A stretch of DNA of 64,000 bases from Candidatus Schekmanbacteria bacterium RIFCSPLOWO2_02_FULL_38_14 (GTDB lineage: Bacteria; Schekmanbacteria; GWA2-38-11): contig MGDH01000022.1 in the NCBI GenBank assembly GCA_001790855.1, forward strand, positions 1 to 64,000, given 5' to 3'. Below are positions 1,992-33,154 of the stretch, piece after piece. Made by a program: the position numbers and the translations under genes. The notes under the pieces are model-generated. The model worked only from the letters and a program-made list of their open reading frames with translations, ran no database searches and was not told the origin of the DNA. Numbering within the stretch: position 1 is the stretch's first letter; the number at the start of each line of letters is the position of its first letter.

Positions 1992-3986
1992 TTAATAAAT
2001 AGAGGTACCCACCATCTCTTTTAATTTAGGAATCCCAAACTCTGAAAGAACAGTTGGAGCTAAATCTGTAAGAGATGGATTTTTCAGTTTTATTTTTTTG
2101 TTGCTCAGGATTATTCCGGGCACTTCCTCTGCAGCCATGCAGTGGTCTCCGCTCCATTTTTCAGTATTATCTTTTAAAAGAGCTTTTGGTATTGCCCCAA
2201 GCGCTGCCTCCCATCCTGTCCTGTATCCTCTTGCATATCCAATTAAAAGGTCAGGTGAGTTTTTTACATAAGGACCTTTATATATCTCAGATGCTTTATA
2301 TACTCGTAAAACTACTTTCTCGCCATTTTTTGGGTCTCTTGCTTCAAGAAGTTTTTTTGAAATTTCATCCAAAAGTTTTTCATACTCAGGCCCCTGCTCC
2401 ACAATCCCGTTAGCCTCCCTGTCTGTACGGTTGATGTAAAGTCCGTTAAATCCAAGTGAGTAAGCCTTGGTACCTGACCAGTCAACATTTTCAAAAAATT
2501 CCTTGCTTTCACCAGCAGATTCATCGTTCAGCTTAATATAACCATTCTGCATGAGCCATGTATTTATCTGAAAAGAGCGGTAATAAGGAGCAAAACCGTG
2601 GTCTGACATTACAATAAGAGTAGTATTGCTATCTATCTTTTTAAAAGCTTTTCCAAGAACCCCGTCCATTTCAATATAGAGGTTTTCAATCACTTTCGCA
2701 TACTTCTCTCCATTTTCTTTATCATAGGCTGGATGGGTTTTGTCAGTTGTTCTCCAGAACATATGACTATTTAAATCAGTGGTTCCAAAATAATAAAAAA
2801 GAAGTCCTGATTTAAATCTGTTCAATTCATAGTCAAACATCTCTTCTCTTTCCTTCAGAACAAAATCTGACTGCTGGAGATATTCACCATCATTTAATAT
2901 TCCGCCAGACAAAGCCTTTGTATCCTCTGGCATCCCTTGTGTGTAGAAATAACCAAACTGTTCGCAAAGCTCTTCAGAGTAATCTTGCGGAGTTGAAATC
3001 GGCATTGCAGGGGCTGAAGGATCAATATTTACCGGGCTAACATAGAGTTTAAAATCAGGTCTGACCTCTTTTAAAAAAAACTTACAGATTCCATAAACAC
3101 TCTGGATGTAGGGAATCATTTCAAACTCCACTCTCACCCACCTGCTCCATTCACCCTGCTTTAGAATTGCCTCCCTATCTCCTACAACAACCTTGCCAAC
3201 TGGATTTTTTGGATCAAGATAGAGTACAAAATCTACTGTAGATGTTGGATTATCTTTTACAAAAGCATTCGGAGGACCCATCAGCTTACCCTCTACCTTG
3301 TTGTCCGCAACATTGGCTTCATATATTTTACCACCTGAAACATCTTTTTTCTCTGTTTCCGGTCTGTTGGTATAGAATGAAAAAGTTCCGTAGGAACCGA
3401 CTATGTCAGGAGTCCCCATTCCTGAAAGAGCCCTTCCTTCTGTTTTAACCGGAGGGAAATTTGAAGGAATTCTGAAAACAGTTGTTGGAATCCCCTTATC
3501 CTCAAGAATCTCCCAAAATGCCTTTCCCTTCCTGAGAAGCAGAACTTCTCCCCCTGATAAGGGAATTATCCATTTGCCAAGTTTGATAGTATTCCCGGCT
3601 GGCTTTGTTTCTGAAGTTGAAAGGTAGGGAATCATTGTCTTTGGATCATTATGTATGAAATCAAAAATTCCGTGCCCGCCCGGTGTCAGACCAGTTATAA
3701 AATTAGCCCATGCAACAGGACTCTGAGGAGGCATACTTGTCTGAAGAGGAAGAAATGAACCTGTCTCCTTAAGATGCCTGAAATTCGGCATTTTGTCCTC
3801 ACCCATCATCCTTTCAAGAAGCTGCGGGTCCATCCCGTCAAAACCAATGATAAGAACTTTTTTAGATGTATTATTAGCTTTGCTCTTGGTACAGCCTGAG
3901 ACTGTGCTGATAAGAGCTATCAAAAAAATAAGAATTGCTGTAAATCTGAAATAATTCTTTTTTGTAATTTGAAAATGTTTAAACAT
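1992..3986 (-). CDS. Alkaline-phosphatase-superfamily (type I phosphodiesterase-like) lipoprotein
   Basis: The start was placed at the ATG at 3986, giving 664 residues. The upstream alternative at 4049 lies inside a dispersed repeat. The N-terminus is a lipoprotein signal: hydrophobic residues about 15-29, then lipobox VSGC with Cys32. Mature-domain motifs fit the alkaline phosphatase fold: GFDGMD, SPVAWANFITG with Ser in the usual nucleophile region, MSDHGF and SGDHC. It should be a metal-dependent phosphoester hydrolase or phosphotransferase held at the periplasmic face; the substrate is unknown. It is clearly paralogous to the next gene upstream (4131-6233), sharing NIDP.(N/A)PAMPIS and SGDHC stretches. 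The short N-terminal tail before the core is typical of surface-anchored members. Confidence 0.8.
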   Translation of the reverse strand: MFKHFQITKKNYFRFTAILIFLIALISTVSGCTKSKANNTSKKVLIIGFDGMDPQLLERMMGEDKMPNFRHLKETGSFLPLQTSMPPQSPVAWANFITGLTPGGHGIFDFIHNDPKTMIPYLSTSETKPAGNTIKLGKWIIPLSGGEVLLLRKGKAFWEILEDKGIPTTVFRIPSNFPPVKTEGRALSGMGTPDIVGSYGTFSFYTNRPETEKKDVSGGKIYEANVADNKVEGKLMGPPNAFVKDNPTSTVDFVLYLDPKNPVGKVVVGDREAILKQGEWSRWVRVEFEMIPYIQSVYGICKFFLKEVRPDFKLYVSPVNIDPSAPAMPISTPQDYSEELCEQFGYFYTQGMPEDTKALSGGILNDGEYLQQSDFVLKEREEMFDYELNRFKSGLLFYYFGTTDLNSHMFWRTTDKTHPAYDKENGEKYAKVIENLYIEMDGVLGKAFKKIDSNTTLIVMSDHGFAPYYRSFQINTWLMQNGYIKLNDESAGESKEFFENVDWSGTKAYSLGFNGLYINRTDREANGIVEQGPEYEKLLDEISKKLLEARDPKNGEKVVLRVYKASEIYKGPYVKNSPDLLIGYARGYRTGWEAALGAIPKALLKDNTEKWSGDHCMAAEEVPGIILSNKKIKLKNPSLTDLAPTVLSEFGIPKLKEMVGTSIY

Positions 3987-32605: not shown

Positions 32606-32622
32606 TGTCGGGTTTTTAGACA
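32606..32622. promoter_or_regulatory. Upstream activator-type palindrome 1 (TGTC-N9-GACA)
   Basis: TGTCGGGTTTTTAGACA is an inverted repeat with 4-bp half-sites and 9-base spacing. It is about 190 bp upstream of the predicted sigma-54 transcription start and nearly identical in design to the second site at 32670-32686. Confidence 0.6.
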
Positions 32623-32669
32623 CTTTTTATATTTATAAAACAATGAGTTAGATTATCTCTGCTAAAAAA

Positions 32670-32686
32670 TGTCGGAAATTTAGACA
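32670..32686. promoter_or_regulatory. Upstream activator-type palindrome 2 (TGTC-N9-GACA)
   Basis: TGTCGGAAATTTAGACA shares TGTCGG...TTTAGACA with site 1 and starts 64 bp after it. It lies about 125-140 bp upstream of the predicted start, the usual distance for NtrC-type enhancer sites. Confidence 0.6.
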
Positions 32687-32782
32687 AATTTCAAGTTTCT
32701 ATATTTGTACTTTTAAATAAGTCTAATCGATTATTATGGAATTAAGCAATTAAAACAAATAGTTATATTTTTGCCCTAAAAA

Positions 32783-32798
32783 TGGCATAAATTTTGCA
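32783..32798 (+). promoter_or_regulatory. Sigma-54-type promoter (-24/-12)
   Basis: TGGCATAAATTTTGCA matches the TGGCAC-N5-TTGCA consensus, with GG at 32784-32785 and GC at 32796-32797 separated by exactly 10 bases. Transcription should begin near 32809, leaving a leader of about 88 nt before the small gene at 32897. Confidence 0.65.
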
Positions 32799-32896
32799 TA
32801 AATCTTAAGTATCAAAAGAATATTTTTTAAAAGGGTGAGAATTAAAACTTTTATTAAAGCCTTTCTTCTCTAACCAGCAATTTCTTAAGGAAAACT

Positions 32897-33154
32897 ATGT
32901 CTGACAATAGTGGGAAAAAAGAAGAATTTGCTGAAGAAGAAACAAAATTTCTTCAGCTAAGAACTGCTGTTAACCTTACAAAGTTAATAATATTGCAGGG
33001 AGAAATTACGTATGGAGAGGCTTTAAAACTTGTTGAAAACCTCAGGTCTTATTCCATGAAGCTTTTTCCTGAAAAAGAAGAGACTTTTGAGTTGGTTTAT
33101 AGAGGAAGATTTAATAGAATAATGGACGAAAAATACAAGTATTTGGAAGAATAA
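32897..33154 (+). CDS. Small conserved-looking protein of unknown function, sigma-54-associated
   Basis: This 85-residue soluble, charged protein has predicted helices: an acidic N-terminus (KKEEFAEEETKF), LRTAVNLTKLIILQGEIT, YGEALKLVENLRSYSMKLFP and EETFELVYRGRFNRIMDEKY. I do not recognise a named family. The pattern of GEIT..EA..L, LFP.KEE.F and YR.RF looks like a conserved domain rather than chance. AAGGA precedes the ATG at 32897 by 8 bases. The upstream sigma-54-type promoter and two palindromes suggest tight regulated expression. It stands alone, converging with coaBC. Confidence 0.75.
   Translation: MSDNSGKKEEFAEEETKFLQLRTAVNLTKLIILQGEITYGEALKLVENLRSYSMKLFPEKEETFELVYRGRFNRIMDEKYKYLEE

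Follow-up and report, generated by a model that had tools for sequence, protein, structure and literature searches.

Proteobacterial genes for PEP-CTERM proteins are preceded by a 17-nt motif (motif 1) that ends in TTTACA and is sometimes repeated (Haft et al., 2006; PMC1569441). A sigma-54 motif (motif 2) follows motif 1 after 63 ± 11 nt, with spacers of 32–92 nt; PrsR was inferred to be the protein that binds motif 1, and the motif was found in Proteobacteria only (Haft et al., 2006). Dependence of a PEP-CTERM gene, pepA, on RpoN has been shown experimentally in Aquincola (PMC9850573). More broadly, sigma-54 promoters that are assisted by IHF form a general class (e.g., PMC7962754; PMC3897727). 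In a search of the open-access literature, which left most subscription papers outside, we found no report of a PrsR-box system in Schekmanbacteria.

Here we describe a control region within a 64,000-nt stretch of DNA from Candidatus Schekmanbacteria bacterium RIFCSPLOWO2_02_FULL_38_14 (contig MGDH01000022.1, positions 1 to 64,000; hereafter, the window). A preliminary description of this DNA had proposed a sigma-54 promoter, with two palindromic sites upstream, that drives a gene for one small protein. Judged from sequence, the element is very probably a PrsR-dependent sigma-54 promoter that operates by the mechanism outlined in the Discussion.

Results

Anatomy of the promoter

Seven features, all on the forward strand, make up the locus:

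32606..32622, + strand: PrsR-type box 1 (distal), TGTCGGGTTTTTAGACA; 24.1 bits; ortholog form TGTCTGAAAATTGGACA in GWA2_38_11
32638..32650, + strand: IHF-like site between the boxes, AAACAATGAGTTA; forward IHF-type consensus; block kept in the ortholog; predicted binding site
32670..32686, + strand: PrsR-type box 2 (proximal), TGTCGGAAATTTAGACA; 23.1 bits; ortholog form TGTCTAAAATTTGAACA
32753..32765, + strand: IHF-like site just 5′ of the promoter, AAACAAATAGTTA; −30 from the promoter T; predicted binding site
32783..32798, + strand: sigma-54 (−24/−12) promoter, TGGCATAAATTTTGCA; exact match; rpoN in the genome; kept in the ortholog
32887..32892, + strand: ribosome-binding site AAGGAA, read from the sequence
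32897..33154, + strand: gene for an 85-aa soluble three-helix protein of an unnamed family; ATG at 32897

The GG at 32784–32785 and the GC at 32796–32797 give the sigma-54 promoter its exact spacing, and AAGGAA lies 88 nt downstream; the coordinates and distances in the preliminary description were correct on both counts. Transcription would be expected to start near 32809. The two boxes begin 64 bp apart, at −177 and −113 relative to the promoter, and the box-to-promoter gap is 96 nt. They had been presented as 17-bp palindromes. The sites and their spacing stand, with the proviso that both palindromes are imperfect and somewhat asymmetric. The 85-aa gene is divergent from xseA and converges on coaBC, which is 46 bp away.

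Conservation before the orthologous gene

Both boxes (at −186 and −113) and the promoter (TGGCATAAAAATTGCT) are kept before the ortholog in GWA2_38_11, the nearest relative examined, as the proposal of a functional control region had predicted. The block between the boxes, including its IHF-like site, is also kept. The leader of this ortholog (L113, ~3700–3955) exceeds that of the window gene by ~200 nt, and an insertion with an inverted repeat, CCTGCCGGCAGGCAG, is found there but not in the window.

Boxes were absent at a more distant Schekmanbacteria homolog (in genome G002) and at the deltaproteobacterial homologs. Since boxes are present at GWA2_38_11 but not at these homologs, and since the family of the 85-aa protein co-occurs only slightly with PrsR (see below), the 85-aa gene probably came under PrsR control within a single family of Schekmanbacteria.

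A regulon of box promoters in Schekmanbacteria

We defined a PrsR-regulon promoter as one or two boxes of the lineage consensus, no more than 300 bp upstream of a sigma-54 site, together with conservation before the ortholog. The promoter of the 85-aa gene, with its two boxes of 24.1 and 23.1 bits, belongs to this class. It is not alone: a genome search for the palindromes upstream of sigma-54 promoters found the same unit of box and sigma-54 site at other loci, and the four Schekmanbacteria genomes together contain ~32 such promoters, with the box consensus TGTCGGATTTTTGAACA and about ten or more regulated genes per genome. The suggestion that the locus could uncover the set of genes under an NtrC-type activator was thus borne out, and the activator can be named, most likely as PrsR. 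The control region had also been thought elaborate for a single small protein. The region is real, but it is not special to this gene, being the standard double-box promoter of the regulon. Paired boxes are 62–68 bp apart, or about six helical turns, in 15 of 24 promoters, and the gap between box and promoter is typically ~84–110 nt.

Complete PEP-CTERM tails (e.g., VPEPSTLLLLGFGLMGAGIFGRRALKK) are present in the products of 14 of the ~32 promoters, and most of the remaining products have apparent signal peptides, as read by eye. In the two closest genomes, three of the ten strict sigma-54 promoters with a box, and none of the 53 without one, are followed by a PEP-CTERM gene (p = 0.003). In the genome that contains the window, four of the six PEP-CTERM tails are encoded behind boxed promoters; the gene for the fifth adjoins one of these four, and the sixth belongs to a fragment of 44 codons located beside prsR.

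Several other boxed genes differ in kind. At L044 (G000:C37) and L162 (G002:C15), conserved peptides of 52–53 aa (KKKAFVEPKLKVYEPLIDITLFTSTANVGGGTFF and KKKPFNEPRIKIYSKLEDITLFTSVSNVTGTTFF) are encoded 70 and 63 nt after the promoter, respectively, directly 5′ of a gene for a large exported lipoprotein; the peptides resemble the precursors of a modified-peptide system. Large exported beta-propeller (SBBP-repeat-like) proteins with a common N-terminal "KLQMPFIENQGQ" region are encoded behind the boxed promoters L047, L048, L160, and L164, and a PEP-CTERM tail is absent from the part of these proteins that was seen. At L163 and L156, both in G002, PrsR-type boxes precede genes for a 661-aa GAF/GGDEF-like protein and a response-regulator/AraC-type protein (both read by eye), and the regulon may therefore contain signaling genes. 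The presence of a soluble small protein, peptide genes, and signaling proteins suggests that the regulon reaches past PEP-CTERM proteins.

PrsR as the likely activator

The genome has the components that a sigma-54 promoter with enhancer-like sites presupposes, and that the preliminary description had proposed looking for: it encodes rpoN (Sigma54_DBD, E = 3.9e-60) and at least 12 full-length sigma-54 activators. A single cluster contains the genes for PrsR (TIGR02915, 570.7 bits vs a cutoff of 502.6), PrsK (426.6 bits vs 300), PrsT (565 bits vs 312.2), and an exosortase (TIGR02602, 169 bits vs 105.55), with prsR next to the other three. Because the genome has matches above the curated cutoffs to all four, we take PrsR, which is the PEP-CTERM/exosortase system's response regulator, to be the most likely activator of the box promoter.

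Could another NtrC-family activator read the boxes, with the PEP-CTERM genes also among its targets and PrsR merely coexisting? There are at least 12 full-length activators to choose from, ten of which were scanned against NCBIfam, and the box does not fully match the PrsR motif of Proteobacteria. However, PrsR is the only one of the ten that passes the PrsR curated cutoff, its gene is clustered with those for PrsK and the exosortase, and box and PrsR are present together in all four Schekmanbacteria genomes. Moreover, one outside genome that bears PrsR (G285; PrsR, 749 bits) has TGTC-headed 17-mers (e.g., TGTCGCTTATTTTTACA and TGTCGGTTATTTTAACA), most of which end in TTTACA, 50–64 nt before its PEP-CTERM sigma-54 sites, in the arrangement published for motif 1 (Haft et al., 2006). 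We consider control by a different activator improbable, and PrsR is the activator assumed in what follows.

The prsK-prsR locus itself yielded no boxes. Beside prsR, there is a 44-codon open frame with a good PEP-CTERM tail at its end (G000:C9:82660-82731; L111, ~9660), which appears to be what is left of a disrupted PEP-CTERM gene.

IHF-like sites between and downstream of the boxes

Of 32 box promoters, 13 have a forward IHF-type site at −30 to −32 or at −40 to −42, where shuffling predicts 0.4. These two clusters are one helical turn apart. For other sigma-54 promoters, 8 of 52 have an IHF-type site at −50 to −22, and those of this lineage have mainly the −38 to −42 class. A further-upstream site, at −108 to −166, occurs in ten box promoters (that of the window and nine others).

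The window has a site in both positions, at 32753 and 32638. The sequence at 32753 is a WATCARN4TTR variant in which A replaces T as the third base. The alpha and beta subunits of IHF are both encoded (NCBIfam NF001222, 118.4 vs a cutoff of 115; NF001401, 112.1 vs 111), and we infer that IHF binds at 32638 and 32753.

The 85-aa protein

The open reading frame at 32897–33154 encodes the single 85-residue protein of the preliminary description; Pfam and NCBIfam searches returned no family match. A database look-up, which had been proposed for this family, found that 29 of the 290 genomes sampled, from many families, encode relatives that share the core FP-x(8)-LIY-x(2)-RF-x-R. The family motif is FP-x(8)-[LM]-[IV]-Y-x(2)-R-x(2)-R, with positions that are invariant across phyla, and the ortholog in GWA2_38_11 is 65–67% identical. 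Neither a signal peptide nor a PEP-CTERM tail was found in the 85-aa sequence, which is not that of a PEP-CTERM protein. The gene is therefore an atypical target, with a soluble product that stays in the cell interior among mostly exported ones.

A structure model predicts a three-helix bundle (pLDDT 87.6). The closest structural neighbors are bS20 chains, with a VIA-align Z of ~9 over 76 residues, an rmsd of 2.2, and 8–14% identity, a Z that is within the chance range for helical bundles. Foldseek E was above 1 and there was no sequence match. We judged the likeness to bS20 to be one of fold only, a common three-helix arrangement, with nothing that points to a common function. Searches of PDB sequences found nothing significant, and a viral fold search found nothing below E 0.7. 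Weak matches of some homologs to IspH and DUF496 were taken as coiled-coil-like noise. The genes that neighbor the family vary from phylum to phylum, so genomic context suggests no function.

The 85-residue family (29 of 290 genomes) and PrsR (16 of 290) co-occur in four genomes: G000, G001, G002, and G175. Since co-occurrence is limited to these four, we rejected the idea that the family is a general component of PEP-CTERM systems. We conclude that the 85-aa gene is a putative lineage-specific recruit to the PrsK/PrsR regulon. A tentative and rather unlikely extension is that the family assists the production of surface proteins or exopolysaccharide as a new partner in the cytoplasm, possibly as an adaptor or regulator, and that some bacteria control it through PrsK/PrsR. 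If true, the PEP-CTERM switch would have an intracellular effector arm.

It is also conceivable that the promoter is real and its product of little weight, the gene being a passenger or the transcript acting in some other way, for example as antisense to coaBC. The gene does converge on coaBC at close range, and we found no intrinsic terminator between the two. Nonetheless, the open reading frame has a good ribosome-binding site, and neither the identity of the GWA2_38_11 ortholog nor the invariant positions across phyla would be expected of a dispensable product, making this explanation highly improbable. A functional protein product remains the reading that we prefer.

Specificity of the box and the sigma-54 site

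In the 2.68-Mb genome, the strict sigma-54 pattern TGGCAYN5TTGCW has 38 sites vs 2 for a reversed control, and the fuller form of the 17-bp box has 17 vs 5 for its control. The preliminary description had defined the sites as TGTC-N9-GACA. Both sites are present, but the loose pattern is not specific by itself (38 in the genome vs 105 for the reversed control), and with no enrichment, we dropped it as evidence. Specificity is confined to the fuller motif, TGTCNRN-WWWWT-NRACA.

To score the 64 kb, we made a weight matrix for which 58 sites from other loci were used and the two sites of the window left out; the matrix, which is partly non-independent in that the pattern used to collect its sites was drawn up after the window had been seen, gave 24.1 and 23.1 bits for the window boxes and 12.5 for the runner-up. 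According to simulations with sequence of equal composition, sites of ≥20 bits are expected ~0.00015 times per 456 bp, and sigma-54 promoters of this kind likewise ~0.00015 times per equal length. The control elements at 32606–32798 are real and far above chance expectation. That a sigma-54-like string and two palindromes merely coincide in AT-rich DNA, as might be supposed from the 25% G+C of the intergenic region and from TGTC-N9-GACA alone not being rare in the genome, has a vanishingly small probability in view of the matrix scores and simulations and is refuted by the conservation before the ortholog and by the regulon.

Discussion

How might this promoter work? We propose that the membrane kinase PrsK phosphorylates PrsR, dimers of which would bind both boxes, which lie on one face of the DNA with six helical turns between them. 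IHF would bend the DNA between the boxes and again just before the promoter. This bending would allow the AAA+ ring of PrsR to contact RNA polymerase-sigma-54 at 32783–32798 and open the complex, and transcription from ~32809 would then produce one small, soluble three-helix protein. According to this model, the 85-aa gene would have been recruited to the PEP-CTERM/exosortase regulon for surface protein and exopolysaccharide in one family of Candidatus Schekmanbacteria, where its product may have a role in the surface program. The genes under the PrsK/PrsR switch probably include some that are not part of the secretion system.

If correct, these proposals mean that PEP-CTERM proteins are under PrsK/PrsR-RpoN control in an uncultured phylum too; the original description confined this control to Proteobacteria. 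They also define a promoter anatomy for Schekmanbacteria, in which IHF-like sites accompany two boxes that are most often spaced by six helical turns. Using the consensus TGTCGGATTTTTGAACA, the regulon can be listed in any related genome.

As in IHF-assisted sigma-54 promoters (PMC7962754; PMC3897727), an IHF-consensus site lies between the activator site and the promoter, in phase, in a genome that encodes IHF alpha and beta. The window differs in that its second IHF-like site lies between two activator boxes, and here IHF binding is predicted.

The closest likeness is to the PrsR/PrsK-RpoN systems (Haft et al., 2006; PMC9850573). PrsR, PrsK, PrsT, and an exosortase are all encoded in the genome, and the targets are mostly single-gene units with long upstream regions. 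Unlike the known PrsR/PrsK targets, the 85-aa protein is cytoplasmic and lacks PEP-CTERM. Like motif 1 (PMC1569441), the Schekmanbacteria box is 17 nt long, is sometimes repeated, and is followed by a −24/−12 promoter. When the window box is compared with motif 1 as worded, rather than with its logo, the two have equal length and a TGTC head in common, but the 3′ end of the box is TTTAGACA. The differences are in the host, a member of the Schekmanbacteria; in the consensus, whose 3′ end is AGACA or GAACA, not TTTACA; in the number of boxes, usually two and most often 62–68 bp apart; and in the distance to the promoter, which at 96 nt in the window is longer than the 32–92 nt between motifs 1 and 2. 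The boxes of G285 are intermediate between the Schekmanbacteria box and proteobacterial motif 1. On sequence grounds, the Schekmanbacteria box appears to correspond to motif 1 and, because it has a different 3′ end and lies farther from the promoter, would best be called a variant of that site.
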